Part shown: positions 25,628-40,878 of the stretch, piece after piece
Layout of the letters: each line of letters opens with the position of its first letter
Position numbering within the stretch: the first letter of the stretch is position 1
From: Verrucomicrobiaceae bacterium
Lineage (GTDB): Bacteria; Verrucomicrobiota; Verrucomicrobiia; Verrucomicrobiales; Verrucomicrobiaceae
DNA length: 64,000 nucleotides
Reading direction: 5' to 3'
Assembly (NCBI GenBank): GCA_016795365.1
Contig: JAEUHN010000041.1
Coordinates: 124,001-188,000 of the forward strand
Notes under the pieces: model-generated
The model's database searches: none
Told to the model about the DNA's origin: nothing
Seen by the model: only the letters and a program-made list of their open reading frames with translations
Made by a program: the position numbers and the translations under genes

Positions 25628-26356
25628 TCACCCCCCGATGACCTGCATCAAATGCTCCAGTTCGGCCTTCTGTTCGGCCGCATCATTCACTGTCTCGGCG
25701 ATCACGCCTTCGATGAGTTTCGCATAGCGCTTCCTCATGCGATGGATTTGCAGACGCAGCGTCGCTTCATTGATGCCGAGATTCTTCGCAGCTTCGGCAT
25801 ATGGCGTGGCGTTGTCGCCGAGCGGAAGGAACTCGCGCAGTTGCTCGAAGGTCTGCGTGTTGTCCGCCTTCGCGTAATCGGCACGCAACTGCGCTTCTGC
25901 CTTGGCGAGCACGTCCCTGGCCCAGACGCGGTCAAAGAGGTTGTCCGGATCGTGCGTGTCCGCGGGCTCGCTGGCGTAGCGCGCCTCTGCGTCCAGTTCT
26001 TCAAAGGAGAGCGTGGCGGCCCTCGATCCGCCACGTTTCTTGGCTGCATCGTGACGCAAGTGTTTGCTGACGATGCGCTTGAGCATCGCGAGCATGAAAC
26101 TCCTCAACTTGCCCTTCTCCTCAGTAACAGCTTGTAATGACTCATTACTGACGAGGTTTTGGAAAAAGACCTGCGTGATATCCTCCGCATCCTCGGTGCC
26201 AAAGCCGTAGCGCCGCGCATAGGCGTAGATGGGATACCAGTAACTGCGGCACAGCTGCTCCAGCGCCAGGGCAGACTCCTTCTCGCTGCCTGTCTGAACC
26301 TTGCGGATCAAGGTCCAGCGAGTGGAGGGAAAATCGGGGCTGGCTGGGGATAACAT
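25628..26356 (-). CDS. ECF-type RNA polymerase sigma factor, PVC kinase-linked type (sigma 1)
   Basis: 242 residues. Region 2 (about 18-95) contains YWYPIYAYARRYGFGTEDAEDITQ and FRSFMLAMLKRIVSKHLRH; region 4 (about 180-235) contains ATPYAEAAKNLGINEATLRL and IHRMRKRYA, a helix-turn-helix. The insert between the regions, with PADTHDPDNLFDRVWA, is typical of the planctomycete/verrucomicrobial group linked to Ser/Thr kinases. The ATG at 26356 is chosen at the start of the conserved part. No anti-sigma gene is adjacent; instead a kinase gene lies on each side (22858-25614 and 26525-29416). Control by phosphorylation, as shown for a Vibrio kinase/ECF pair, is a plausible inference. It is divergent from the second kinase, with promoter-like element A between them. 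Confidence 0.9.
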   Translation of the reverse strand: MLSPASPDFPSTRWTLIRKVQTGSEKESALALEQLCRSYWYPIYAYARRYGFGTEDAEDITQVFFQNLVSNESLQAVTEEKGKLRSFMLAMLKRIVSKHLRHDAAKKRGGSRAATLSFEELDAEARYASEPADTHDPDNLFDRVWARDVLAKAEAQLRADYAKADNTQTFEQLREFLPLGDNATPYAEAAKNLGINEATLRLQIHRMRKRYAKLIEGVIAETVNDAAEQKAELEHLMQVIGG

Positions 26357-26370
26357 GGGTTCGGCGCAGA

Positions 26371-26397
26371 TGAAGCAACGCCCTGTTTGTCGGCAAT
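26371..26397 (+). promoter_or_regulatory. putative ECF-type promoter, site A
   Basis: TGAAGCAAC, 12 bases, GGCAAT: one mismatch in each half to the element TGAAACAAC-N12-GGTAAT found at four other places in the window, with the same spacing. It reads toward the kinase gene starting at 26525 (leader of about 120 bases) and starts 15 bases beyond the start codon of sigma 1. Confidence 0.55.
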
Positions 26398-26524
26398 GCA
26401 ACAGCTGATCCCCATCTTTGATGCTCTGCCACAGCCCGCAGCGGTCTTTGAAGCGTCTATCATTGTTTCGGGCGATGACGTGAACATTGGACGAAGGCAA
26501 AAGTCCCTCTTAACATGGGCGGCG

Positions 26525-29416
26525 ATGACTCCCGACGACCAGCCAACGGTGCCGACTCGGCCACCCGATCCTTCGCGTGCTACTCAGCCTGGCGTTTGGA
26601 CGGCACCGTCTGTCGAGGAACTCCAGGCGAAGCTGCCGCAATATGAAGTGCTGGAGATCCTCGGTCGTGGCGGGATGGGCGCCGTTTACAAGGCGCGGCA
26701 GAAATCGCTGAAGCGGCTGGTGGCGATCAAGATCCTGCCGCTCGGCATGGCGGGTGATGAGTTCAAGTTCGTCGAGCGTTTTCAAAACGAGGCGCAGACG
26801 ATGGCGGCGATGAATCACCCGGCGATCGTCAGCGTGTATGACTTCGGCGAGACGCCGGACGGGCTGCTCTACTTTGTGATGGAGTTCGTCGATGGCACGG
26901 ACGTGCACAAGATGATCCAGGCCAGCGGACGTCTCAGCGGTGAGTATGCGCTGTCGGTCACGGCCCATGTGTGTGATGCGCTCTCGTATGCGCACAAGCG
27001 AGGCGTCATCCACCGCGACATCAAGCCGGCGAACATTCTCATCGATCAGGAAGGTCACATCAAAGTGGCCGACTTCGGTCTGGCGAAGATGCATGATCCC
27101 GCACAGACCAGCGGGCTGACAAAGTCGAACATGGCGATGGGCACGCCGGACTATGTCGCGCCTGAGGTGCTGAGTCCCGGCATGGTGGCGGATCATCGCG
27201 CGGACATCTACGCGGTGGGCGTGATGCTTTACCAGATGCTTACCGGCGAGGTGCCACGCGGCATGTTCAAGCTGCCCTCTCAAAAGGGCATCGGCAGCGA
27301 CGAACGTTTCGATGTGATCATCTGCAAGGCGATGGAGCAGGAACGCGAGGAGCGTTTCCAGAGTGCCAGTGACGTGCGCCGTGCGCTCGACGAAATTGCG
27401 ACGACACCGCTGCCGAAGAATGACGGCACCGGCATTGTGCCCGCGAAAAATTTGTCGCTGGCTCAGGCGGGCCGACCAGACACTTCTGCCAGCTCACAAC
27501 CGCAGCTTCCGCCAAACGACGCATCGGCAAAGACGGCGGTCCTCGTTCCTGCGGCAAAACGCTCGCCCGCCACCATGAAACTCGCCATCGGCGGCATCGC
27601 TGTGATGCTCAGCGTGGCGGGGGTCTTCATGTTCGGCAGCAAACCCAGACCGGACACCACTGCGGCAGTGAGCGCAGCCAGCGCATTACCGTCAGCCAAT
27701 CCGCAGACACCGAGTGCCGCCACGACAGCGGCGGGCAAGAGCATCGACCTCCTTGCGATCATTGACCTAAAGCGGGACACGATCGCCGGCGAGTGGAGCC
27801 GCGATGGCGGCGATCTCCTTGTGAAGCCGGGGACCACAGACACCACAGGCAAGGGCACGCCGCGTATTCAACTGCCCTACCAGCCGCCGGAGGAGTATGA
27901 CTTCGAGATCGAGTTCACCCCCGAGACCCATCAGGATGCGGTTTATCAAATCCTCTCCGCCTACCAGCATTCGTTCGCATGGGTGCTGGATGCAAATCTC
28001 AAGGCTGGCCGCAAAGCGGGCTTCGACCGGATCGATGGCCAACTCATCAGCGGTCGAACCAACGGCACCACGATGAGGCCGAAGTTTTTGACCAACGGCC
28101 AGCGCCATGTCTCCACCGTTGAGGTGCGCAAAACCGGCGTGCGCGGTCTGCTGGATGGCGAGGTGCTCGTGAGCTACGGCAACAGTTCGGATTCCTTCAA
28201 AGCCTTCGACAGCTCGCCCAACGAAGCAGCGCGCGACACCTTGCACCTCGGCCTAGCCGTGCGGGATCGCGCCGTGCGAATTCACAAGATTACCGTTCGA
28301 GAAATCAGTGGCGCGGGGAAGGTAGATGCGGCCGTGCCTGCTCTGCCTCTGCTTACGACTGCGAACTGGAAAGACGTCACCGCCACCCTCCGCCAGAGTG
28401 TCGCAAAAAAGACCGGTTACACTGTCGATGCCGCTGGAGTGACTCGCACAGCCGGTGCGCCGATTGGCGACACGATGGTGATGGGGCCGAGCGAAAGGGA
28501 CCGCGCTGTGCGTGTGCGGTATGTTGGCCAGGCGCAGGTGAGCCTTTGGTTCAAAAGCGGAGCGGCATCTGCCTTCGTTCTGGCGGCGCGAGATCAGACG
28601 TTGTTCAAGCACCAGAAACAAAAAGTCGGCGAGTCTGACTCCATTGTGCCACCCGTCACGCACCCCGCCAGCTTTGATCCGACACAGCCGCATGAGTTAA
28701 CCGTCGCCGTGCAGGGCACGGTCGTTCGTGCATGGCTCGATGGTCGGCACGTCGGCGAAGCTGAGAATGCCGAGTTGAGAGAATGCTCTCTCGCCATCGT
28801 GCCGATGAAGAACAGCACCGTGCAAAAGGTGGAGGTCGCGGAGCTTTCGACCGCTTCCTCTTCCCCTGAAGGCGCGCAGGTCCAATGGCAGCCCATTTTC
28901 AACCAACCCACCGAATTCCACGGCGATTCCCGCGATGTCGAGTTCCGCGATGGTGCCACGTTCATCAAAGCTCGCACGTTCCTGGCACCCGCTGATCCCG
29001 CCATCGTCGGCATCCGGTCCACCATGCGCTTCTTGACCGGTGGCGACCGCACCGGCTCGCTGACTCTCCGCTCCACGGAAGGTGCAAAGTATGGGGAAGA
29101 AGATTTCGCTCTCACTGCATACATCGCGCCGAAAGGCACGAGTCTCGTGGTTAAGATGCGCGACCGCCCCGCTGGCATCGATCAACTGGGCCGCCATGAT
29201 TTTCCCCTGACGCCCGCACTCAAGGAAGGCGACCTGTTCACCTTTGAACTCAGAGCCGAGAACAAAAAGTTCATCGTGAGCATCAACGGTCGCGAGGTGG
29301 GTAGCGTCGATGACAAGTGGACAGGTGCGACTCGCCGACTCGGCATCACTCCTTCGGTCACTGAGATGACGGAGTTCCGCGACGTGGCGGTGCGGACCAG
29401 CGCGTCCCCGAAGTAA
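26525..29416 (+). CDS. receptor-like Ser/Thr protein kinase with LamG/DUF1080-like outer domains
   Basis: 963 residues. The kinase domain spans about 40-310: GRGGMGAVYK, HRDIKPAN from 163, DFG at 183-185, and APEVL; all catalytic residues are present. A single TM is at about 352-371 (LAIGGIAVMLSVAGVFMFG). The outer ~590 residues appear to be three jelly-roll modules of the type seen in DUF1080/LamG proteins (EYDFEIEFTPETHQDAV; ARDTLHLGLAVRDRAVRIHK; LTVAVQGTVVRAWLDGRHVG; LFTFELRAENKKFIVSINGR). The frame is open from 26387, but the ATG at 26525 fits the kinase N-terminus better. The kinase domain is closely similar to that at 22858, including TADHRADI-type and LYQMLTG segments, so the two are paralogues with different sensors. 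It is followed by convergent sigma 2, 14 bases away. Confidence 0.9.
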   Translation: MTPDDQPTVPTRPPDPSRATQPGVWTAPSVEELQAKLPQYEVLEILGRGGMGAVYKARQKSLKRLVAIKILPLGMAGDEFKFVERFQNEAQTMAAMNHPAIVSVYDFGETPDGLLYFVMEFVDGTDVHKMIQASGRLSGEYALSVTAHVCDALSYAHKRGVIHRDIKPANILIDQEGHIKVADFGLAKMHDPAQTSGLTKSNMAMGTPDYVAPEVLSPGMVADHRADIYAVGVMLYQMLTGEVPRGMFKLPSQKGIGSDERFDVIICKAMEQEREERFQSASDVRRALDEIATTPLPKNDGTGIVPAKNLSLAQAGRPDTSASSQPQLPPNDASAKTAVLVPAAKRSPATMKLAIGGIAVMLSVAGVFMFGSKPRPDTTAAVSAASALPSANPQTPSAATTAAGKSIDLLAIIDLKRDTIAGEWSRDGGDLLVKPGTTDTTGKGTPRIQLPYQPPEEYDFEIEFTPETHQDAVYQILSAYQHSFAWVLDANLKAGRKAGFDRIDGQLISGRTNGTTMRPKFLTNGQRHVSTVEVRKTGVRGLLDGEVLVSYGNSSDSFKAFDSSPNEAARDTLHLGLAVRDRAVRIHKITVREISGAGKVDAAVPALPLLTTANWKDVTATLRQSVAKKTGYTVDAAGVTRTAGAPIGDTMVMGPSERDRAVRVRYVGQAQVSLWFKSGAASAFVLAARDQTLFKHQKQKVGESDSIVPPVTHPASFDPTQPHELTVAVQGTVVRAWLDGRHVGEAENAELRECSLAIVPMKNSTVQKVEVAELSTASSSPEGAQVQWQPIFNQPTEFHGDSRDVEFRDGATFIKARTFLAPADPAIVGIRSTMRFLTGGDRTGSLTLRSTEGAKYGEEDFALTAYIAPKGTSLVVKMRDRPAGIDQLGRHDFPLTPALKEGDLFTFELRAENKKFIVSINGREVGSVDDKWTGATRRLGITPSVTEMTEFRDVAVRTSASPK

Positions 29417-29430
29417 GAGATTCGTGGGCG

Positions 29431-30168
29431 CTATCGCCCGATCACCTTCATGAGGTGCTCCAACTCGGCTTTGGCTTCGGCGGGTGTGCTGACGGTTTGC
29501 GCGATCTGATCTTCGATGATGCCCGCGTAGCGCTTTCTCATGCGATGGATTTGGAGGCGCAGCGCCGTCTCGGAGATGCCCATGGAGGCAGCGAGTTCGG
29601 AATATGGCGTGGCATTGTCACCATGGGGGAGGTATTCGCGCAGGCGTTCGAAGTCTTCGAGGTTGTTGCCCCGGGCGAAGTCTTCACGCAGCTTCCGTCG
29701 GGCTTCGAGCAGCACTTCCTCGGCCCAGGCGCGGTCGAATAACATGGCGGGATCGCAGACATCCGCAGGCTCCGCAAGGTAGCGGTCCTCAGCACTGTCG
29801 TCGTCAAAGGAGAGTGTCGCTGCTGGCGAGCCACCGCGCTTTTGAGCGGACGCGTGACGAACGTGATTGGCGATGACCCGCTTGAGTAATGCGAGCATGA
29901 ACGAGCGGAGCTGGCCCTTTTCCTCGCGTGCATCCTTGATGGCCTCACTGGCCAGGATGCGGTGGAAAAAGACCTGGGTGATGTCCTCTGCGTCGTGCCG
30001 TGCAAATCCATGCCGACGAGTAAAGGCATAGATCGGATACCAGTATTGGCGGCAGAGTTCATTCAACGCCTGTGTCGCGTCCGACTCGTTGCCCTTCTGC
30101 ATTCTTCTCACCAACGTCCACCGTGTGGACGGGAAGGCGGCGTGGCTGGTGAGCAGGGGATTGGACAT
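29431..30168 (-). CDS. ECF-type RNA polymerase sigma factor, PVC kinase-linked type (sigma 2)
   Basis: 245 residues, clearly paralogous to sigma 1: FPSTRWTLVRRMQKG, YWYPIYAFTRRHGFARHDAED and FRSFMLALLKRVIANHVRH in region 2, and ATPYSELAASMGISETALRL plus IHRMRKRYAGIIED in region 4. The start at the ATG at 30168 matches that of sigma 1 by alignment; the frame continues upstream only as non-conserved text. It is convergent with the kinase at 26525 and divergent from the giant protein at 30240, with 71 bases between the two start codons. Its position next to promoter-like site B makes it a candidate for recognising that element. Confidence 0.9.
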   Translation of the reverse strand: MSNPLLTSHAAFPSTRWTLVRRMQKGNESDATQALNELCRQYWYPIYAFTRRHGFARHDAEDITQVFFHRILASEAIKDAREEKGQLRSFMLALLKRVIANHVRHASAQKRGGSPAATLSFDDDSAEDRYLAEPADVCDPAMLFDRAWAEEVLLEARRKLREDFARGNNLEDFERLREYLPHGDNATPYSELAASMGISETALRLQIHRMRKRYAGIIEDQIAQTVSTPAEAKAELEHLMKVIGR

Positions 30169-30183
30169 TTTTTGAGGTTTGTC

Positions 30184-30210
30184 TGAAACAACTTTGAAGG
30201 GGCCGTGAGA
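30184..30210 (+). promoter_or_regulatory. putative ECF-type promoter, site B (degenerate -10)
   Basis: A perfect -35 half TGAAACAAC, then 12 bases, then GTGAGA in place of GGTAAT. It lies 29 bases before the giant protein's ATG at 30240 and reads toward it. The match rests on the nine-base -35 block and the position; the -10 block is poor. Confidence 0.45.
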
Positions 30211-30239
30211 GGAACGCAAACGCCAAACTCTTCCTCGCC

Positions 30240-33200
30240 ATGAAAGCCTTTCACTCACTCCTCGTCGCCGCAGGCATGATCGCACTGTCTGCTCCCGCCG
30301 CTCCATTCTCCAACGGCAGCTTCGAGCAGCCGGGCATCACTTCAGGCACCGAGCAGACACTTGCTTTGCCCTCCACGGCGATCACCGGCTGGACTGCGGC
30401 CAACGGGGCCAGCGTTTACAGTGCGGCAGATGACTTCTCCGCCACGGTCAACACGGCAACAAGCACATGGCAGTATGGCTATCGCAGCACACTCGCATCG
30501 TCGTCACTGACGCGGTATGACAACGCATCCACATGGTATGGGACAAATTCTTGGACGCCCACAGGCTCGACCACGCCTGGGATATTTTACAACGGGACGA
30601 GCGGGGCACTGACGGGCGATGACTGGATCATGCAGCCCAACCAGTTGACTGAGCATCCGGGAGGTGGTGTCATCTTCTGCGTCATTCGTTGGACGGCGCC
30701 TGCTGGAGGACCACCTGGCGGTCGCACGTATGCGATTCATGCAGACTGGGTTGGACTGGGATCGAGTTCCACCGCCGATGTGCATGTGCTCATCAATGGC
30801 TCCTCGGTTTATGACGGCACTGTGTCTGGACGTGGCACGACTGCGAATACCGATGGCACGTTGACGCTGCCGTTTACCTTGCCTGCTGGAATGACAGTGG
30901 AGTTCGTGGTGGGAGACGGTGGCAACGGTCACGGCAGCGATACCATCGCCGTCAATGCGACGATCACGGAGGTAGTGTCGGGGAGTGAGGGCATGACCTA
31001 TCTGAAGAACGGCAACTCCATGGGCGTCGTGGCGCAAGACGGCACGCACATGGTGGGCTTTGGGCTCAATGGTGGACATGCAGGGGCGTTGTCGCAGACC
31101 TTCGATACGGTGCCGGGTGCGACTTACGATGTGACTTACTGGCTGGCGCAGTCGCAATTCAATGGCAACGACGGGCAGACGATGAGCGTGGAGGCGTTCA
31201 ACGGCCGGACTTCACTTGGTGCCGTGGCGAGCAGCAGTTTGCCGGTTCTTCAGAACCAGTGGATTCAAGGCACGACTTACACTTTTACGGCGACATCAAC
31301 ATCGACGAAGCTCGTGTTCAAAGACACCACGCCACAGGCTTCGGGGGCGAATGCGAACTGGGCCTTGGACAATGTGAGTCTGACCATCACCGCACTGCCT
31401 GCGCTGCTGGCGAGCCCGTTCATTTACGGTGGGCACACCTATTACCTCGTGAATCAGACGACCTGGCAGGGTGGCGAAGCCGAAGCCGTCGCACGCGGCG
31501 GGCACTTGGTGACGATCAATGACGCGGCTGAGCAGACGAACGTATTCAACGCCTTCAAGAACGTGGGCAATGTCGCTCGTCATCTCTGGATCGGTCTTTA
31601 TGAAACTGGCAGCGAAGGCAACTATGTGTGGATCAGTGGTCAGGCCCCTAGCCCCCAGCCTCCCAATTACCCGCGCTGGTATCCAGGCCAGCCCGACAAC
31701 TACGGCGGTGTCGAAAGCTACGTTCACATGGTTGCGAACGGCTATGGGGGAGACTCCACGGGACTATGGAATGACCAGTCCAGTCCGGTCACCACCATTC
31801 CGCTCGCTGATCCCTTCGCTGCCATCGTCGAAGTGGAGAGCGCGCAGCCGGTCGTTCCCGGTTACGCAAATGTGTGGCTCGCTGGCCATCCTGCGGGCAC
31901 GCCAGCGCGTGTCACGGACTCCGCACCTGCGGATTCGCCCACGGAAGTGACTGTGACCGGCGGAAAGGATCTGGTTTTCACCGTCACAGGCGGCACGAGC
32001 AATGGTCCCTCCGGTCCGGCGATGGTGCCGGATGGGGCGAACATCATCACGCATGAAGCGGAGAACAGCATCGCACCACTGACCGCGCCGCTCACGGCGT
32101 TGGTGGGTGTGTTCGTGGATGCGAGCGCGCCTTCAGGTGATGCGCCTCCCGCGTATCTCGACTACACGACGGATGTGGCGCGCAATGCGCTGCACTATGC
32201 ACCCGGCTTGCGCCAGCCCTTCTACATCGGCGATGGTCTGACGCCGGACAATGTGCGGCAAGTCTTCCGTGTGCCAACAGGTGCGACTCGGCTCTTCCTT
32301 GGCGCGCTGGATGCGTATGACAATCACCTGAACTTCGGCTCCTTCACCGTGGAAGTCGCTGAGGCTCCACCGCCGCAGGACACGATCGAACCGCCCCAGA
32401 ATCTCGTCTCGTGGTGGCCGGGAGAGAACACCGCGTGGGATGTCGCAGGCATCGGCCGTGGCTCGATGAAGAATGCCGCGCACAATGGCATGGATGCGTA
32501 TGGGCCGGGCAAGGTGGGGCTCGCGTTTGTCTTCGATGGTGTGGATGATCACATTCAAGGACGGCCCACGGGCATCAGTCTTGTGCAAGAGCTGACGATT
32601 GAGGCGTGGATCAATCCGTCTTCGACCACGGGCGAGCGCGAGATCATTTCCAAACGCGACGACAACAACGCCAACATCTCGTATGCGCTCTTCCTGCGTG
32701 ACGGTCATCTCGTTTACCTTTCGCGCATGGCAGGTGTGAACAGCGAACTGGCAGACACGGGCAGCATTGCGGCCAATCAATGGACGCATGTTGCCATGAC
32801 CGAATCCTACACGGCAGGACGGAAGCTGTATGTGAATGGCACCATGGTGGCCAGCGCTGCGGGCCTGCCGCCAGTGCGTCCTGTAACGACTGGTGTTTTA
32901 AGCATCGGTGCCTATGTGACGACGGCAAGTCCAACGGCCACACCGGGTGCGCCTTTTGCGGGCAGCATTGATGAGCTGTCGCTTTTCAATCGCGCGCTCA
33001 GTGCGACCGAGATCGGCTTCATCGTCAATGTCGGTGCGGGTGGCAAGGATCGCGCCGATCCGGCACGCGACTACTCGCCCGTGGCGAATCCGAACACGCC
33101 GTGGAAGTATGGCTGGATTCAAAGCGGGCCAATCAGTGCGAGCTATCTGGAAGGCGGCAATCCGGCTCAGGGTGGCCTGTTCCCCAAGCCCGCGCAGATG

Positions 33201-36200
33201 GCAGGCAGCTTCCTCGCATACATGGGACCATCGCAGGTGATCTTCAATCAAAGCAGCACGCAGCGTCTGATTTCCGGTCCGCTGGAAGTGAACCCGCTGC
33301 AGTTCGCCTTGAATCCCGCTCCCGACGGCTCGTATGCCGTGCTGCGCTGGACGGCACCCTCCAGCGGACGCTTTGCCGTGAGTGCCACGTTTGCGGGTGC
33401 TCATGCCTATTTGCCCACCACCAGCGACGTGCATGTGTTGCGTAATTCGGACAGACTCTTCGACAGCGTGGTGAATGATTTTCAAGGCGATGGAACGTCC
33501 TTCACCGGCACCGTCGTCATGGCGGCAGGTGACACGGTGGACTGGGTCGTCGGTGGTAATGGGGCAGTCTCGGGCGATCACACCGGATTGGTCGCGAGCG
33601 TGACACTCATCGACCACTCGCCGTTTCAGACGCCCACGCTGGTTGACTTCAAATTCACCGGCACGCTGATGACTGGGAAGACCGTGCTGGTGAATGCAGT
33701 GAGCGGCGCTCGTCCCGACTATCAACCGCCCGGCTATCAACCGATGACCGCACGGCTCCAGTATTCGGCCACACCCTGGGACGAAAGCAGCTGGCAGAAT
33801 GTGCCCGGTGGTGAAATGACTCCCACTGGCAAGTATGGCTTCACGTTGCTGGTCAACACGCTGCCTGCTGGTCGCTATGCCTTCCGCATCGATACTTCGG
33901 TGGCGGGTGTGGGTGGTGCTCATAGCGCCCCATCGGACATGTATGACGTGCTGCCGCCGGGCTCGGCGTTGGAAATGAAAGTCACTGCGGTGAGCACCAG
34001 CGATCTGACAGGCGCGACTACGCACCGGGGTGACTACATTGATTACCTCGTGCAGTTCCGGAATACGGGTGGAGTTGCCGTTTTGCCTTCTGTGCTGCCG
34101 AAGATCGAAGCGAGGATTCCTGCGGGCACGACTTATGTCAGCTCATCTCCCGCTGCGACACCGACACCCAAGACCGGCACTACCACGCTCATCACCTGGC
34201 CGATTGCTCGCACCATCTATCCTGTGGATCAGGCTTTCACTTTCACGGCAAGTGCCAGCACAGATTTCATCACGATAGCGAATCACGGCTTCGATGATGG
34301 AGACACCGTGGAATTGCGCTCCACCTCAACGCCGGGCGCTTTGCCAGGCGGCCTGTATCAGGGTGTCGTTTACAAGGTGATGTCTTCCACTATGACAGGC
34401 TTCAAACTGGCGGAGCTCGACAAGACCACCGCCGTGAACATCCTTGATGCTGGCATAGGCACCTTCACCTTGAGTCGTCAGACAGATACGTGGCAGAAGC
34501 GGAAGTTCCGCGTGAGCGTGAAGGATCCGACGATCGCGGAGGACAAGCCCACCCCCGCCATCAATATTCCAGGCACCAACATCGTCTCTGATGTGAAGTT
34601 CATACGCCAGTCCGCTGCGGACCTCGTGGCTGCGCCCGTCACCACAACCGTGGTCAATCCGCTGCGCCTCACTGGCACGATCCGCAGTGATTCGGAGCTG
34701 ATGCAGGGCGGCATCGTGAACATTGACTTCACCGTGACCAATGGCGCGAGCTACACCGCCACCGGCACGACTCTCGTGGTGCGCGCGCCCGATGGTCTTG
34801 CCATCTTGAACCGATCCGCTTTTGTGGCCAGCAATGGTGACACCATGGGCGCGCCCATTGATCCGGTGACGAAAAAACAAATCCCCGGTTACGCCACGGG
34901 GAAGCCCAATCCCAGCCTGGAGGAAGACGCTCTGTTGAATCAGGTCGTGACCTTCAATCTCGGCAACATGCTCGCCGGCACTGCATTGACCTGCCGCGTG
35001 TCCTTCCGCATTCAGTATGACTGGAATCCGCTGACACCGATCTCGTTCAACAACGCCATCGCCAGCATGACACGCGCCGGGCGCAACTCGATCACGCGCA
35101 CGTTGCCCTCTCCGCTAGTGATCAATGCGGCAGCCATACCCGATGACAGGAGACCATCGCTGAGCCTGAACATTGATCACCAAGCAGCGGGATTCCTGCC
35201 GGACACCGATCACGTTGCCATTGTCATGGACCGCAGCGATACCCTGACCGGCACTGAGTTGAAAGATGCGACTGGGAAAGCTCTGCTGCCCATTCGCACC
35301 GTCAGGCAGATTCAATACTTCGTGACGTATCGCAACCACGGCGGTTCGACGGCTGAGTTTATCCGGCTGCTGGTGCCGATCCCGGCCAACACCACCTACG
35401 TCGCCAACTCCGCGATAGTGATGCTGGCTGCAGGTGACAAAAATCCTGCGGGCACCACGGCTCCGACGCTGGTAGGCAGCGCGCTGATCTTCAATCTGCC
35501 TTACCTGGAGAAAGCTGGCGTGCTCGGCAGCGAGAAAACACTGACCTTCCGAGTCAATGTCAAAACTGGGCTCCCTGTCGGCACGCGGATTGTGCAGCCC
35601 GGAGGATCGTTGACCTCGCGCACTCTAAGACTCGCCAAGCAAGCACCTATGCAACTGGAGGCCGAGATGTCTTCCAATGCCAAGATGGTTTACTTGCCTG
35701 AGGGCCATGTGCTTTGGGATGGCGACCAGGTTGCCGAAGTGTGGCACCGCTTGTCGTATCAGAACTTGGGCAGCCTGCCCGCTTCAGGGGTCGAGATTCG
35801 CTACGCGATTCCCCCGGGCTACCTTTTCAAAGGGGCCTCCTTCCTGACTGCCGATGCGAAAACCGATGGGGTGAAAACCGCGCTGATCCTCAACAAGCCG
35901 AACGTCAATGCAACGAGCGGCACGGTCGTATTCTCCGTCGGCACCGTGAACAAAAACGCAGCCGTGAATGGCAAGTGGCTGTCCAAAGGTGGCTACGCTG
36001 CGGTCAGGCTGGCCCCCGATCCTGCCAATCCTCCAACCAGTGCTAACAACTGGCGGCGCGATGGCAGCTTCACTTACAGCAGCGTGGTGCCCGCACCGCC
36101 GCCCATCCCAAGGCTTCCACCGCCGCCGCTCGACCCGATCATCACCTCGCTGGCACCTTCGAAGCTCTTCATCGGAGTGATGGGCGCACCCTTCTACGAC

Positions 36201-37646
36201 CCTGCGAAGGATCAGGCGGGCACCCGCGAAATCACCTACCAGTTGATCTGGGGCAGCAATTTCAGTCAAACCCCTGGCGCGGGCGGGATCAAATTCCCGA
36301 TCCCCGAAGGCACCACCTATGTTCGTCACACACCCTATATTCCTTTGATCGGCACAGACAGGTCTGAAAGTGGCACCTACAGACCACCGGGCGATGCTGA
36401 CGGCGGCACGAATGGCATCGTGGGTTATGGCCTCCACACCGGCACCAACTATGCGACGACAGCCTTCGTCACGGTGCGCATCAACCCCGGCTTCACCGGC
36501 AGGATTGATTGTGTCAATGTGCGCGTCGGAGGTGATCGCGCGGGGCTCTTGTATGCCCCGATCGGACGCACGACGGTCTTCCAACCGGGTGACGACCAGG
36601 CCACGAAAGACAAGCGCCTCGCTGCGGATCGCTTCGGCAGCATTCAACTCGCGGACGCGGCGGCAGGCTCTGCAGGCAAGACCGGCGTCATCAAGCAAAT
36701 CCAGAGCATCCAATTCAATTCCTCATGGGCCAACTTCGCAGGCACGGATGCCATCGTCATCGCAGCGAACAACGCCGTGCTGATCCCTCTGGGGGCCGGC
36801 AGAATTGTGGCGGCTGGGGGAGGTAACATCGTTGGCGAGCACGGCGCGGGCATCGTTGGCGAGCATGGCGCGGGCATCGTTGGCGAGCATGGCGCGGGCA
36901 TCGTCGCGGGTGGCGGCGGCAACATCGTCGCAGCAGGCGGTGGTAACATTGTCGCTGCGGGTGGTGGGAATATCTTCTCCGGTGTGACGAATATTGTCGC
37001 CGCAGGGGGAGGCAATATCGTGGCCGCCGGCGGCGGGAACTTCGTGCATGTGGATGTGCCTGGTCGTGGCATGATATCCGCCAATGATGTCTATGCTAAC
37101 ATCGCCAGCATTGTGGCTGGCGGAGGAGGCAACATCGTGGCCGGTGGCGGCGGCAACCTGATCGATAAGCAAAAAAGCACGGTCAATCCCGATGGATCTG
37201 GATTCCTGCTGAACGGCGCGCACCTGATCGGCCAGGATGGTGCCAGCTTCGGTAGCCTGAGCATCGATGCGAAAGGTCTGATGTCGCTCATTCCTCCGAC
37301 GGTCGTGCAGTCGGTGCAGGCGCTGACGTCCAAGTCCCCCGCCTTGATTGCCAAAAACGGCGCGGCCGCGGCTGCCGCCGTCGCCGCCCTCAAGGGTGGT
37401 TTTGTCGGAGAAGCGGGCAAGCCAACTCCCGTGAACGTCAATCAGATCCTCAACCAGGATGCTGCCAGTATTCTAAACCAAGATGCTGCCACGATTCTCA
37501 ACCAGGATGCTGCCAGCTTGATCGGTCAGGATGGTGCCAGCTTGATCGGCCAGGATGGTGCCAGCTTGATCGGCCAGGATGGTGCCAGCTTGATCAATCA
37601 AGCCGCGAGTATCTCTGGAGGAGTTACCTTCGGCAAAGGAGGATAA
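30240..37646 (+). CDS. giant secreted multidomain protein ending in octapeptide repeats (giant 1)
   Basis: 2,468 residues with a signal peptide (MKAFHSLLVAAGMIALSAPA). In order: DUF642-like jelly-roll sequence from about 22 (FSNGSFEQPG); a first DVHVL module at about 151-249; a C-type-lectin-like domain at about 396-537 (YYLVNQTTWQGGEAEAVARG, HLWIGLYE, WYPGQPDN); a LamG domain at about 722-930; a second copy of the DVHVL module at about 1037-1136; DUF11-like beta-sandwich repeats at about 1240-2185, interrupted by a tail-fibre-like module near 1335-1415; and octapeptide arrays at 2189-2306 and 2403-2457. The end is GVTFGKGG with no sorting signal I recognise. An adhesin, sheath or S-layer-like role is inferred only from the architecture. 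It is divergent from sigma 2 and followed 84 bases later by the TPR-like gene. Confidence 0.88.
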   Translation: MKAFHSLLVAAGMIALSAPAAPFSNGSFEQPGITSGTEQTLALPSTAITGWTAANGASVYSAADDFSATVNTATSTWQYGYRSTLASSSLTRYDNASTWYGTNSWTPTGSTTPGIFYNGTSGALTGDDWIMQPNQLTEHPGGGVIFCVIRWTAPAGGPPGGRTYAIHADWVGLGSSSTADVHVLINGSSVYDGTVSGRGTTANTDGTLTLPFTLPAGMTVEFVVGDGGNGHGSDTIAVNATITEVVSGSEGMTYLKNGNSMGVVAQDGTHMVGFGLNGGHAGALSQTFDTVPGATYDVTYWLAQSQFNGNDGQTMSVEAFNGRTSLGAVASSSLPVLQNQWIQGTTYTFTATSTSTKLVFKDTTPQASGANANWALDNVSLTITALPALLASPFIYGGHTYYLVNQTTWQGGEAEAVARGGHLVTINDAAEQTNVFNAFKNVGNVARHLWIGLYETGSEGNYVWISGQAPSPQPPNYPRWYPGQPDNYGGVESYVHMVANGYGGDSTGLWNDQSSPVTTIPLADPFAAIVEVESAQPVVPGYANVWLAGHPAGTPARVTDSAPADSPTEVTVTGGKDLVFTVTGGTSNGPSGPAMVPDGANIITHEAENSIAPLTAPLTALVGVFVDASAPSGDAPPAYLDYTTDVARNALHYAPGLRQPFYIGDGLTPDNVRQVFRVPTGATRLFLGALDAYDNHLNFGSFTVEVAEAPPPQDTIEPPQNLVSWWPGENTAWDVAGIGRGSMKNAAHNGMDAYGPGKVGLAFVFDGVDDHIQGRPTGISLVQELTIEAWINPSSTTGEREIISKRDDNNANISYALFLRDGHLVYLSRMAGVNSELADTGSIAANQWTHVAMTESYTAGRKLYVNGTMVASAAGLPPVRPVTTGVLSIGAYVTTASPTATPGAPFAGSIDELSLFNRALSATEIGFIVNVGAGGKDRADPARDYSPVANPNTPWKYGWIQSGPISASYLEGGNPAQGGLFPKPAQMAGSFLAYMGPSQVIFNQSSTQRLISGPLEVNPLQFALNPAPDGSYAVLRWTAPSSGRFAVSATFAGAHAYLPTTSDVHVLRNSDRLFDSVVNDFQGDGTSFTGTVVMAAGDTVDWVVGGNGAVSGDHTGLVASVTLIDHSPFQTPTLVDFKFTGTLMTGKTVLVNAVSGARPDYQPPGYQPMTARLQYSATPWDESSWQNVPGGEMTPTGKYGFTLLVNTLPAGRYAFRIDTSVAGVGGAHSAPSDMYDVLPPGSALEMKVTAVSTSDLTGATTHRGDYIDYLVQFRNTGGVAVLPSVLPKIEARIPAGTTYVSSSPAATPTPKTGTTTLITWPIARTIYPVDQAFTFTASASTDFITIANHGFDDGDTVELRSTSTPGALPGGLYQGVVYKVMSSTMTGFKLAELDKTTAVNILDAGIGTFTLSRQTDTWQKRKFRVSVKDPTIAEDKPTPAINIPGTNIVSDVKFIRQSAADLVAAPVTTTVVNPLRLTGTIRSDSELMQGGIVNIDFTVTNGASYTATGTTLVVRAPDGLAILNRSAFVASNGDTMGAPIDPVTKKQIPGYATGKPNPSLEEDALLNQVVTFNLGNMLAGTALTCRVSFRIQYDWNPLTPISFNNAIASMTRAGRNSITRTLPSPLVINAAAIPDDRRPSLSLNIDHQAAGFLPDTDHVAIVMDRSDTLTGTELKDATGKALLPIRTVRQIQYFVTYRNHGGSTAEFIRLLVPIPANTTYVANSAIVMLAAGDKNPAGTTAPTLVGSALIFNLPYLEKAGVLGSEKTLTFRVNVKTGLPVGTRIVQPGGSLTSRTLRLAKQAPMQLEAEMSSNAKMVYLPEGHVLWDGDQVAEVWHRLSYQNLGSLPASGVEIRYAIPPGYLFKGASFLTADAKTDGVKTALILNKPNVNATSGTVVFSVGTVNKNAAVNGKWLSKGGYAAVRLAPDPANPPTSANNWRRDGSFTYSSVVPAPPPIPRLPPPPLDPIITSLAPSKLFIGVMGAPFYDPAKDQAGTREITYQLIWGSNFSQTPGAGGIKFPIPEGTTYVRHTPYIPLIGTDRSESGTYRPPGDADGGTNGIVGYGLHTGTNYATTAFVTVRINPGFTGRIDCVNVRVGGDRAGLLYAPIGRTTVFQPGDDQATKDKRLAADRFGSIQLADAAAGSAGKTGVIKQIQSIQFNSSWANFAGTDAIVIAANNAVLIPLGAGRIVAAGGGNIVGEHGAGIVGEHGAGIVGEHGAGIVAGGGGNIVAAGGGNIVAAGGGNIFSGVTNIVAAGGGNIVAAGGGNFVHVDVPGRGMISANDVYANIASIVAGGGGNIVAGGGGNLIDKQKSTVNPDGSGFLLNGAHLIGQDGASFGSLSIDAKGLMSLIPPTVVQSVQALTSKSPALIAKNGAAAAAAVAALKGGFVGEAGKPTPVNVNQILNQDAASILNQDAATILNQDAASLIGQDGASLIGQDGASLIGQDGASLINQAASISGGVTFGKGG
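36804..37157 (+). repeat. octapeptide repeat array 1 in giant 1
   Basis: Residues 2189-2306. Units run IVAAGGGN, three IVGEHGAG, IVAGGGGN, two IVAAGGGN, a seven-residue IFSGVTN, two IVAAGGGN, then after a 23-residue break two IVAGGGGN. The three IVGEHGAG units are almost identical 24-base repeats, so part of the array is recently amplified. Confidence 0.9.
37440..37610 (+). repeat. octapeptide repeat array 2 in giant 1
   Basis: Residues 2401-2457. Units ILNQDAAS, ILNQDAAT, ILNQDAAS, three LIGQDGAS and LINQAAS, encoded by near-identical 24-base repeats. An isolated LIGQDGAS also occurs between the arrays, near 37228. The array ends 12 residues before the C-terminus. Confidence 0.92.
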
Positions 37647-37687
37647 GCAGCGCTACCGTCTCATTGTGCGGGTATTGTGATACAGGT

Positions 37688-37714
37688 TGAAACAACCTCT
37701 TCGCTGCGGGTAAT
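37688..37714 (+). promoter_or_regulatory. putative ECF-type promoter, site C
   Basis: TGAAACAAC, 12 bases, GGTAAT: exact consensus. It lies 17 bases before the ATG of the TPR-like gene at 37731, so the transcript would have a very short leader. It is identical in both halves and spacing to site E. Confidence 0.7.
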
Positions 37715-37730
37715 CTAAAGCCACACCCTC

Positions 37731-38798
37731 ATGACAACCTTGCTCCGACTTGCCCTCTGCCTGCTTTTCACAGAGGCAGGATTCTCGCAGAACGCCGCTC
37801 CCGATGCCAACAGCGCGGCGCTGGTGGTTCTGCAGCAGAAGGCGGATGAATGCAAGGCGCGGAAAGACTTTGTTGGCATGGAAGCCATGTTCCGGGCGCA
37901 GATCACAATGCAGCCCGGTCTTCCCAATCCGCACTACAATCTCGCGTGTGCGCTGGCCTTGCAGGGCAAGACGGACGATGCGCTCAAAGCGCTGACGCAG
38001 AGCGTGGCGACAGGATTTGCCGATGCGAAGGGATTGGAGGCTGACGACGATCTCGCATCGCTGCGCGTGGAGCCGGCGTTTGCGGCTGCCAAGGCCATCG
38101 CGGAACTGAATCAGCGCACCGCCGGACAACCGGCGTCGCCCGCAGTAAACCCGGCTTCAGTGCCCATGCCCGCTCCAGTTCGCGGTGCCGTGCCAGCGGC
38201 CACGGATGCTGAACCTGGGCCGCCGATGACGAAACAGGAGATCATCGACATCCTCAAGGCGCGCATCGGCACCGATGGTCCGCATCCACAGAAGGAGGCC
38301 GTGAACCTGGAACTGCGCGAACTGATCAAGAAACGCGGCGTGAGCTTCCGCTACTCCACGCTATCGGACAGGCACTTGTTCACCCAGGTCGGCGGCATCG
38401 GGTCAATGATCGATGCGGTGGAGGCGAACTACGGCAAGCCTAAGCCCAAGTCCTGGCTCTGGGGCGAATGGAATATCTCCACGACCAGCACGCGCACCTT
38501 CTCGCTCTCGAACGCAGTCAATCAAATGGGGTTTCTTGTCATTGAACCGGATGGCAAATACCTGTGGAAGGTGAAGGCCGACGACGAGACCAAGAACTGG
38601 ATCGACGGCAAATGGCGCGAGCCCACGGCGGACGAGATGAAGTGGATGGGCGGAGCCGGGGTGGTGCTCATTGGTGGAGAGCAGGGCTATGACTGGATTG
38701 TCCACCGCGACTACACTGCCGACGACGGGAAGGACTGGATCACGATTGCAGTCATCAATTCACGCCAGACCTTCAGGAGCGGACTGCGCGTTCCTTGA
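37731..38798 (+). CDS. secreted TPR-like protein with a C-terminal domain shared with the split gene downstream
   Basis: 355 residues with a signal peptide (MTTLLRLALCLLFTEAGFSQ). Residues about 30-125 form TPR-like helices (GMEAMFRAQITMQPGLPNPH, YNLACALALQGKTDDALKAL). A Pro/Ala-rich linker follows (about 131-165). The C-terminal ~190 residues begin MTKQEIIDILKARIG and contain GKYLWKVKADDETKNWIDGKW and ADEMKWMGG. That domain is clearly homologous to the protein encoded at 39812-40804. I do not recognise it as a named family; it could be a small beta-barrel ligand-binding fold. The gene is preceded by site C and probably forms an operon with 38827. Confidence 0.8.
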   Translation: MTTLLRLALCLLFTEAGFSQNAAPDANSAALVVLQQKADECKARKDFVGMEAMFRAQITMQPGLPNPHYNLACALALQGKTDDALKALTQSVATGFADAKGLEADDDLASLRVEPAFAAAKAIAELNQRTAGQPASPAVNPASVPMPAPVRGAVPAATDAEPGPPMTKQEIIDILKARIGTDGPHPQKEAVNLELRELIKKRGVSFRYSTLSDRHLFTQVGGIGSMIDAVEANYGKPKPKSWLWGEWNISTTSTRTFSLSNAVNQMGFLVIEPDGKYLWKVKADDETKNWIDGKWREPTADEMKWMGGAGVVLIGGEQGYDWIVHRDYTADDGKDWITIAVINSRQTFRSGLRVP

Positions 38799-38826
38799 TG
38801 AAGAATCACTCGCACCCGAAGAGACC

Positions 38827-39750
38827 ATGAAGACCATTCCATTGCTTTTTCTCCCTCTGGTCGCGCTGGCACTGGTAAGCACCAGTCTTCACGCCGACGA
38901 CGAAGCCCGACGCATTGCGATCAAAGCTGAAGAGGCGCGGGCTTACGCACGTCAGGAGGAGGCAAAGCAGGCAGCCGCACGCTACGAGGCTGCCCAAGCG
39001 GAAGCCAAACGCCAAGCCGCTGCTGATGAATCCAGGAGGCAGGCCATGCAATATGAGGCTCGCAAGGCTGATGAGAAAGCCCAGGCCATCAAGGATGAAC
39101 GTCGTCGCGAGGAGATGAAGGATGAACAGCGCAAGGCAGATGCCAGGGCGCTCAATGTGGAGAAGCCCAAGCAAAAGGACATCGTCGGCACACGCGATGA
39201 GCCCAAGACCTACAATGGGCAGAAGGAACTCGAAGCCTACAACCGCAAGAAAGAGGAGGAGAAACGTCAGTATTACCTCGCCGCGCAGAAGGCCGAAGAG
39301 CAAAAGCGGGAGTATTATAAGGAAATCGAGAAGAAGGAGGCCGCCAAACGCGAAGCCATGCTCTACGAGCAGAAAAAGCAGGCGCAAAAAGAAGAAGAGA
39401 AGCGCTACCAGATGAAGCAGGAAGCGAACAAAGAAGCCGCCAAGGCAGAGCAGCGGAAATATGATGAGCGCATCGCCGCTGCCAAGGCCCAGGCAAACAA
39501 GGACGCAGCCAAAGAAGAGCAGCGGAAATACGACGAAAAGCAGGCGGCGCAGAAAGCCGAGACTGCAGCCTACAATCGCAAGCAGGAGGAACTCAAAGCC
39601 GCACGAAAGGCTGAAGATGCGAAATACTACCAGCGGAAGGAAGAGCAGAAAGCCGAAGCTGCCGCCTACGAGCGTAAGGCCGAAGATCGGAAGGCTGAGG
39701 AACGCGCTGCTGCGAGGCGCGCGGAGTATCTGAAATCACTGAACAAGTGA
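38827..39750 (+). CDS. secreted, highly charged coiled-coil protein
   Basis: 307 residues with a signal peptide (MKTIPLLFLPLVALALVSTSLHA). Almost all of the mature part is Ala, Glu, Lys, Arg and Gln with regularly spaced Tyr, for example EEQRKYDEK, AAYNRKQEE and AKYYQRKEEQ, so it should be one long helix or coiled coil in the periplasm or outside. The isoelectric point is basic-to-neutral with mixed charge. It starts 28 bases after the TPR-like gene stop and is probably co-transcribed from site C. Its long frame upstream of the ATG at 38827 overlaps the previous gene and is not used. The function is unknown; a structural spacer or a scaffold for the neighbouring secreted proteins are options. 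Confidence 0.82.
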   Translation: MKTIPLLFLPLVALALVSTSLHADDEARRIAIKAEEARAYARQEEAKQAAARYEAAQAEAKRQAAADESRRQAMQYEARKADEKAQAIKDERRREEMKDEQRKADARALNVEKPKQKDIVGTRDEPKTYNGQKELEAYNRKKEEEKRQYYLAAQKAEEQKREYYKEIEKKEAAKREAMLYEQKKQAQKEEEKRYQMKQEANKEAAKAEQRKYDERIAAAKAQANKDAAKEEQRKYDEKQAAQKAETAAYNRKQEELKAARKAEDAKYYQRKEEQKAEAAAYERKAEDRKAEERAAARRAEYLKSLNK

Positions 39751-39773
39751 TTGGCCCGGAATAAAAGCCGGGA

Positions 39774-39800
39774 TGAAACAGTGTGGAGCCTACAGGTAAT
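39774..39800 (+). promoter_or_regulatory. putative ECF-type promoter, site D
   Basis: TGAAACAGT, 12 bases, GGTAAT: two mismatches at the end of the -35 block, perfect -10 and spacing. Its end is 11 bases before the ATG at 39812, so the transcript would be nearly leaderless. A small hairpin (CCCGG / CCGGG, 39755-39772) directly precedes it. Confidence 0.65.
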
Positions 39801-39811
39801 GCACGGTGCGT

Positions 39812-40294
39812 ATGAACCGATTCCTGCTCGTCTCATTCGCTTTCTACAGCCTCCTGCCGGTGCTCATGGGACAGACCTCCCGTGGATTTAGCCCCGGTCA
39901 GACGATCTCGTGGCGGGATCGCGTCACTGGCCAATGGCAGCCCGGCACTTACATCGGCGCTACTCCAGGTGACAAACACCCCATCATCTTGCAGCGCCCT
40001 GGCGACGTGGGATCACAGACGGCGTTTGACTGGGATAATGTAAAGGATGGCAACGCAGCCGCTCCCGATGCTGCGCCTGCGAATGCACCTGCGATTCCAC
40101 CTTTGCCGATGACGAATTCCAATCCGACGCAACCGGCCATCGCCAACGTGCCACTGCAACCTGGGCTGCCACAGGCCAGCAATGCGCCCGCAGACGGCTC
40201 TGCTGGCGCGCCTTTGACCGAGGATGACATCGAAGCCTGGCTGGCGCAGAAGCTGCCGGGCAATCCCTTCGCGGACTCGCCGCGTCTCCAGTAG
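39812..40294 (+). CDS. N-terminal half of a secreted protein split by an in-frame TAG
   Basis: 160 residues with a signal peptide (MNRFLLVSFAFYSLLPVLMG). Then FSPGQTISWRDRVTGQWQPG, a small domain that could be SH3-like, a Pro/Ala/Asn-rich linker, and LTEDDIEAWLAQKLPGN, which aligns with MTKQEIIDILKARIG of the TPR-like protein at 37731. The TAG at 40292-40294 interrupts this shared domain; the same frame continues without a gap at 40295. It is either a recent nonsense mutation, a genuine two-ORF arrangement, or a base error. Site D is just upstream. The frame also has a GTG at 39806; the ATG at 39812 is preferred. Confidence 0.72.
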   Translation: MNRFLLVSFAFYSLLPVLMGQTSRGFSPGQTISWRDRVTGQWQPGTYIGATPGDKHPIILQRPGDVGSQTAFDWDNVKDGNAAAPDAAPANAPAIPPLPMTNSNPTQPAIANVPLQPGLPQASNAPADGSAGAPLTEDDIEAWLAQKLPGNPFADSPRLQ

Positions 40295-40804
40295 GTGAAC
40301 AAAGAACTCGGTGAACTGGTGGAGGCGCGCGGCACCACGTTCACGGACATGAACAAGCTGAACGATCGAAACGTGCTCGGCAGATACGGAGTCAACTCCG
40401 ATGCTACCGGCCCAATGACCCACAACTACGGGCCGCCGAACACGAAGCAGGAACTCTTCGGCACCTGGGAGACCAACAAGATCGGACTGCCCACGCACGC
40501 GATCGTAGGCGATTACTACGTCACCACGCTCGAACTCGCGAAGGCGAAGACTGGCACCGTAACGATCAACCCCAAGGGCAGCTATGTGTGGGACACCGGA
40601 ACCGGCGTGATCCAAGGCACTTGGCGGGACGCGACCCACGACGAAATGGCCGATCAGGGTGGAGCGGATGTCATTTTACAAAATGCCAAGAGCGGTGTGA
40701 ACTGGATTGCTTACAAATACCGCGCCGGCACCAAGGAAGAGTGGCTCGGCCTCGCCGAAGTAAACCGCCGCTCGGTGCGCGAATCGGCGGCAAGGATTCG
40801 GTGA
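40295..40804 (+). CDS. C-terminal half of the split protein (in phase with 39812-40294)
   Basis: 169 residues if translation restarts at the GTG that directly follows the TAG. The protein (VNKELGELVEARGTTF..., GSYVWDTGTGVIQGTWRD, DEMADQGGADVILQNAKSG) aligns along its whole length with the C-terminal domain of the TPR-like protein at 37731: VNLELRELIKKRGVSF, GKYLWKVKADD, DEMKWMGGAGVVLIGG. It has no signal peptide of its own, so as a separate product it would stay in the cytoplasm, unlike its homologue. I see no good ribosome-binding site before the GTG. It is best regarded as the other half of one gene of about 330 codons. Confidence 0.7.
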   Translation: MNKELGELVEARGTTFTDMNKLNDRNVLGRYGVNSDATGPMTHNYGPPNTKQELFGTWETNKIGLPTHAIVGDYYVTTLELAKAKTGTVTINPKGSYVWDTGTGVIQGTWRDATHDEMADQGGADVILQNAKSGVNWIAYKYRAGTKEEWLGLAEVNRRSVRESAARIR

Positions 40805-40851
40805 GGAGTGCGTTCGCAGTGGTCGTCCCTCGAAGAAATTTGATCATCTTC

Positions 40852-40878
40852 TGAAACAACCCGGCACCCGGCGGTAAT
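40852..40878 (+). promoter_or_regulatory. putative ECF-type promoter, site E
   Basis: TGAAACAAC, 12 bases, GGTAAT: exact consensus, identical in both halves and spacing to site C. It reads toward giant 2 (ATG at 41008), implying a leader of about 120 bases. Confidence 0.7.

Follow-up and report, generated by a model that had tools for sequence, protein, structure and literature searches.

Kinase-linked extracytoplasmic function (ECF) sigma factors are already known as a kind and are numerous in Planctomycetota-Verrucomicrobiota. We present here the analysis of a locus in a Verrucomicrobiaceae bacterium (GenBank assembly GCA_016795365.1, contig JAEUHN010000041.1, positions 124,001 to 188,000) that offers a defined promoter-like element together with defined targets, genes for giant secreted proteins. 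The whole 64,000-nucleotide stretch is called the window, and all positions are given in it. Five copies of the element lie within 14.5 kb, beside the genes for two ECF sigma factors (ECF1 and ECF2) and two Ser/Thr kinases.

All five elements were found on the plus strand where the initial annotation had placed them. The motif consists of a -35 block, a 12-base spacer, and GGTAAT, and mismatches were scored against this pattern. The sites at 37688..37714, 16 nt ahead of a TPR-like gene, and at 40852..40878, 129 nt ahead of the gene for giant protein 2, match it without mismatch. The site at 39774..39800 (TGAAACAGT-N12-GGTAAT) has two mismatches, both in the -35 block, and an intact -10, and the split gene starts 11 nt on. 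The weakest site, at 26371..26397 (TGAAGCAAC-N12-GGCAAT), has a single mismatch in each block; it points away from ECF1 toward kinase 2, which starts 127 nt on. The site at 30184..30210 (TGAAACAAC-N12-GTGAGA(G)) combines a perfect -35 with a -10 of the ECF2 type described below, in which GTGAGA counts as four mismatches, and the ATG of giant protein 1 follows after 29 nt. With homology-supported starts for ECF1 (ATG at 26356), ECF2 (30168), kinase 2 (26525), and giant protein 2 (41008), the claim that all five sites are intergenic holds; the overlap of two sites with listed open reading frames (ORFs) arises only from upstream in-frame starts.

Kinase 1 (22858..25614, plus strand) is a Hanks-type Ser/Thr kinase with a C-terminal lectin/LRR-like sensor part (Pfam Pkinase, 3e-51; Lectin_C, 9e-6). 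It is convergent, across a 13-bp gap, with ECF1 (25628..26356, minus strand; 242 aa), which has the non-basic residue Asn at position 67. Kinase 2 (26525..29416, plus strand; Pfam Pkinase, 4e-55), a Ser/Thr kinase with a C-terminal sensor part and a start (MTPDD) backed by homologues, is likewise convergent with ECF2 (29431..30168, minus strand; 245 aa), which is 61% identical to ECF1 and has Arg at the residue-67 position. Each ECF gene is thus convergent with a membrane Ser/Thr kinase gene and divergent from its first target, and the divergent promoters begin 14 to 15 nt outside the ECF1 and ECF2 start codons. The remaining genes are all on the plus strand. Giant protein 1 (30240..37646; 2468 aa) has DUF642, C-type lectin, LamG, and DUF11 domains by Pfam and a signal-peptide-like N terminus. 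The TPR-like secreted protein (37731..38798; 355 aa; NF047558, 2e-12) has a 66% identical orthologue, also behind the motif, in a related genome (G001). The coiled-coil protein (38827..39750, with its start taken from homology) has an 82% identical G001 orthologue adjoining the same genes, and its gene is probably cotranscribed with the TPR-like gene. The split gene (39812..40804) is a single frame with one in-frame stop at 40292-40294, which may reflect a pseudogene, a sequencing error, or read-through; it is 30% identical to its paralogue, the TPR-like gene (E value, 5e-27), and keeps a motif-bearing promoter. Giant protein 2 (41008..47565; 2185 aa from the ATG) carries FG-GAP and DUF11 repeats by Pfam and a signal-peptide-like N terminus that agrees with that of its G001 orthologue.

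Profile and fold comparisons show ECF1 and ECF2 to be genuine ECF (group 4) sigma factors. ECF1 scores 43.7 bits against TIGR02937 (cutoff, 42.9) and ECF2 scores 33.6, below the cutoff; ECF1 also has a profile match to Mycobacterium tuberculosis SigE (2e-5), and its top Foldseek matches are all ECF sigma factors (AlgU, SigE, SigH, SigW, and RpoE). The AlphaFold model of ECF1 is of moderate confidence, with a mean pLDDT (per-residue confidence) of 73.5, is weakest near the linker, and was for this reason not used to place residue 67 against DNA. The two factors share the helix HRMRKRY in region 4. Counting ECF1 itself, the ECF1 family has 27 members in this genome.

In an alignment of 18 sites, information is high in TGAAACAA and in the G-G-x-A of the -10, of which the A is invariant, and low in the spacer and flanks. 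A modest A/T-rich stretch lies about 10 to 17 bases upstream of the motif, and the -10 stands 9 to 30 nt from the start codon at most sites. Pairwise identity among seven sites from the window and G001 is 75 to 100% in the -35 block and mostly 17 to 42% in the spacer and flanks. Because the blocks are conserved while flanks and spacers are near chance identity, the sites are not repeat copies. Two blocks at a fixed spacing, just upstream of start codons and conserved against unconserved flanks, are features of an ECF promoter. Judged from these alignments, the elements are very probably ECF promoters of the form TGAAACAA-N13-GGTAAT/GKGARAG, mostly in front of genes for secreted proteins of 1,100 to 2,750 aa.

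Within the window, four sites were found at up to two mismatches, and allowing three still gave four, against an expectation of 0.5; none of 100 shuffled controls gave four matches at up to three mismatches. A weight matrix trained independently on 13 sites, all from other genomes, was run over both strands of the window and ranked the five sites 1 to 5, with scores of 25.0 (37688), 25.0 (40852), 20.5 (39774), 19.8 (30184), and 14.8 (26371). The top score per window in 40 shuffled windows averaged 14.3 and reached at most 19.2, so that the first four sites score above all of them. Support for 26371 is mainly positional: like its counterparts in relatives, it lies 14 nt outside the ECF start.

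The initial annotation had proposed a whole-genome scan. The genome (6.74 Mb) was searched with patterns, controlled by reversed patterns. Seven matches were found at up to two mismatches, four of them inside the 14.5 kb, and both exact GGTAAT-type copies fall within this cluster. With the two exact seed sites set aside, two of the five remaining matches lie in the cluster, for which our arithmetic gives a chance of about 5e-5. This clustering favors a small, local regulon. At three mismatches, the genome gave 71 matches versus 103 for the reversed control, which is background; only the close matches carry a specific signal, and we therefore claim no dispersed regulon. An isolated motif-like site elsewhere in the genome (C7:23041), which scores 20.5 with the matrix, is followed after 60 nt by the ATG of a 480-aa ORF whose N terminus is hydrophobic; this ORF is a candidate distal target, or the site is a chance match. 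Another off-locus match (C28:154295) overlaps the TGA stop of a different ECF gene and is probably due to chance.

Of 387 genomes of the order, 10 encode close relatives of ECF1 and ECF2 (the count includes the genome of the window), and most of these have the motif, with a spacer of 12, in the divergent region beside the ECF gene. On the divergent strand, 6 of 14 relatives (the window's two ECF factors excluded) match at up to two mismatches with this spacer; the null rate for such a match within 350 bp is 0.00025. Any other spacer from 7 to 17 gave at most one match in the same 14 relatives, and the opposite strand gave none at any spacer tested. Conservation of the motif spans at least nine genomes. 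Exact GGTAAT-type copies in eight relatives number two, at the giant protein 2 promoter of G001 and at an ECF gene of genome G048. Exact copies of TGAAACAAY-N12-GKGARAG number four in nine genomes, the window's own among them, and all four lie at ECF genes of the ECF1/ECF2 family. Because exact copies are almost confined to this type of ECF locus, the regulon looks local, though it may have a few distal targets. As in the window, most targets in relatives encode large proteins that begin with a signal-peptide-like stretch and carry domains of the LamG, lectin, FG-GAP, beta-propeller, or DUF11 kinds. One ECF relative in genome G011 has as its divergent neighbor (L093:3862-4776), 44 nt after the motif, a gene for prolipoprotein diacylglyceryl transferase (Pfam LGT, 1.5e-63), unlike the giant targets. 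Between the ECF and giant genes of G010 (L089, ~6240-6430), short tandem repeats (units like GCAGAATGATTCTG) part the ECF gene from its motif. The ECF1 orthologue of G001 directly faces the TPR-like gene, so the block of kinase 2, ECF2, and giant protein 1 is either an extra module here or was lost in G001. Comparison with other genomes thus gives good support to the initial reading of the AAC-containing -35 as that of an ECF promoter (spacer of 12, position before starts, conserved blocks) and to the proposed link of the sites to the two local ECF factors and surface-type genes.

In the ECF tree, a subclade containing ECF1 is associated with GGTA-type -10s and a subclade containing ECF2 with GKGARAG-type -10s, with moderate branch supports of 0.78 and 0.62. 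The sequences GGGAGAG, GTGAAAG, and GGGAAAG adjoin members of the ECF2 subclade elsewhere and match the GTGAGAG of site 30184; the -10 of this site, initially described as poor, is a good example of the ECF2-subclade type, conserved beside ECF2 relatives. In G001 the search turned up an orthologue of ECF1 but none of ECF2, and all sites there are of the GGTA type. The only alignment columns that fully separate the two sets are ECF1 residues 67 and 71. The association of residue 67 with the third -10 base was examined at sites called by TGAAACA alone, with the -10 read at the fixed spacing. Where residue 67 is basic (Arg or Lys), the third base is G in 14 cases, T in none, and another base in 1; where it is non-basic, the base is T in 3, C in 2, and G in none (Fisher test, 0.0004, a value that overstates independence because orthologous ECFs have promoters of common ancestry). 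Two loci outside this strict table, L113 (Gln, T) and L111 (His, T; one mismatch in its -35), sit elsewhere in the ECF tree. Class-wide searches with two sister-clade ECFs supplied fewer new loci than a large blind test of the residue-67 rule requires. In M. tuberculosis sigma-L, specificity for promoter base '-12' is set by His54, which adjoins loop L3, the site of -10 recognition (PMC6372665). The third -10 base aligns with this '-12' in our alignment to the sigma-L promoter (PMC6372665), and residue 67 is the end of the region-2 helix leading into L3; an insertion at this place in ECF1 leaves the exact structural equivalence of residue 67 to the sigma-L site uncertain. Members of a sister clade (L121, L127, L128, and L131) have the -10s CCGCAAG, ACGCAAG, CCGAGAG, and CCGAGGG behind the same TGAAAC -35, which suggests further clade-specific promoters.

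The elements resemble promoters of Bacillus sigma-W and sigma-M (TGAAAC ... CGT), with a TGAAAC-type -35, a short CGT/GGT-type -10, and about 16 bases between them; they differ in a spacer one base shorter in our alignment, a -10 that starts with GG, and the sigma subfamily involved. As in M. tuberculosis sigma-L and sigma-H, where region 2 reads the -10 at '-12' and at a flipped '-11' master base and residues near loop L3 set specificity (PMC6372665, PMC6411747), the -10 would be read by region 2, although we propose residue 67, where the region-2 helix ends ahead of L3, as the determinant. The ECF43 systems EcfP/PknT of Vibrio parahaemolyticus and EcfK/PknS of Xanthomonas citri (PMC8999054, PMC13147305) share with this locus an ECF gene beside a membrane Hanks-type kinase gene, and the described ECF43 systems have no anti-sigma factor; EcfK likewise has local targets, a type VI secretion system. 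ECF43 factors, however, have lost or altered the DAED motif and use a phosphorylated Thr instead, whereas ECF1 and ECF2 keep DAED, which is invariant in 12 of 12 aligned ECFs and places them outside ECF43; in addition, this locus has convergent kinase and ECF genes and giant secreted proteins as its targets. For six kinase-linked ECF groups, phosphorylation has been proposed as the activating step, and all of them but ECF43 retain DAED or a similar motif; among groups linked to Ser/Thr protein kinases, ECF59, ECF61, ECF62, and ECF217 are named for planctomycete members (PMC8999054). By description, the present factors are like these four, in which activation by phosphorylation is predicted from gene order and DAED or a similar acidic motif is kept. 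In the literature searched, with incomplete coverage, we found neither a target promoter for the DAED-containing kinase-linked ECF groups nor a verrucomicrobial kinase-linked ECF promoter.

In our judgment, the elements very likely serve the ECF sigma factors encoded at the locus as core promoters. Four computed results support this: promoter anatomy, conservation, confinement to one locus type, and the way in which the -10 varies together with the sigma factor. Chance matches or functionless remnants of duplicated DNA would fit the duplicated modules at the locus (ECF1/ECF2 and the TPR-like/split genes) and the background level of the three-mismatch pattern, but this is highly improbable given two conserved blocks amid flanks and spacers at chance identity and the number of genomes that share them; chance-level flank identity also rules out mobile or duplicated repeat copies. 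The upstream location would suit activator or repressor sites before housekeeping promoters equally well. Such sites are nevertheless a very unlikely explanation for a 12-base spacer that is fixed and confined to one strand, an ECF-like -35 (TGAAAC), a -10 whose master-nucleotide position is always A, a start codon usually 9 to 30 nt away, and a -10 base that varies with a sigma residue. The initial annotation had assigned all five sites to one ECF regulon, which would have a single ECF factor, or both factors alike, read every site, with the -10 at 30184 as a degenerate, weaker copy. The common -35 and spacer, the similarity of ECF1 and ECF2, and their identical region 4 helix speak for this; the counterparts of GTGAGAG at ECF2-subclade loci, the agreement of the -10 with residue 67, and the restriction of G001 to GGTA-type sites speak against it and make it unlikely. 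The shared -35 and spacer stand, and since the -10 types track the ECF1 and ECF2 subclades, there are probably two sibling specificities with a common -35 rather than one regulon: the four GGTAAT-type sites probably belong to ECF1 and the site at 30184 to ECF2.

Several points weigh against reading the elements as core promoters of two ECF specificities. Kinship among promoters makes the Fisher value (0.0004) for residue 67 optimistic, and a looser TGAAAC rule yields three non-basic cases with G, at sites that may be spurious. Site 26371 (14.8) is not significant by score, is weak, and lies 127 nt from its gene. In two relatives, G010a and G011a, the stretch that directly adjoins the ECF gene is without the motif; in G010a the motif is about 690 bp away, in front of the giant gene. 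Retention of DAED in ECF1 and ECF2 means that the ECF43 phospho-switch is not directly transferable and cannot apply unchanged.

We infer transcription from the sites, the assignment of each site to an ECF factor, the kinase step, and the signal. In the proposed mechanism, the C-terminal domain of each kinase would sense a signal and the kinase would activate its ECF partner. Sigma region 4 would read TGAAACAA, and region 2 would read GGTAAT (ECF1) or GTGAGAG (ECF2); the holoenzyme bound at TGAAACAA would melt the DNA at the -10, as in other ECF systems, and the neighboring secreted-protein genes would be transcribed. The putative ECF1 targets are the TPR-like and coiled-coil genes, the split TPR paralogue, giant protein 2, and probably kinase 2, and the putative ECF2 target is giant protein 1. 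Since the weak ECF1-type site at 26371 precedes kinase 2, a cascade from kinase 1/ECF1 through kinase 2 to ECF2 can be drawn, in which the raising of kinase 2 by ECF1, if that site is active, is the least certain step. More tentatively, the locus might comprise insulated circuits with a shared -35 and a single -12 code (Arg or Lys at residue 67 for G, a non-basic residue for T or C), in which such a cascade would control giant surface proteins. The locus as a whole provides a testable residue-to-base rule for how close ECF paralogues could stay separate and a first handle on when giant proteins without a known role are made. There is no sign of autoregulation through the motif, because in the 14 relatives the ECF strand has no copy directed at the ECF gene; that occupancy of the divergent promoter hinders ECF transcription is speculation.

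Activation of ECF1 and ECF2 by the kinases is plausible from gene order and from precedents in other ECF groups. A conserved Ser/Thr kinase neighbor, as in ECFs linked to such kinases, is present in the window and at the family loci, with a kinase gene near the ECF gene in most members that have enough flanking sequence. The ECF1/ECF2 clade has the convergent arrangement; in the sister clades (L111-L167), many loci have the kinase gene directly downstream of the ECF gene in the same direction.

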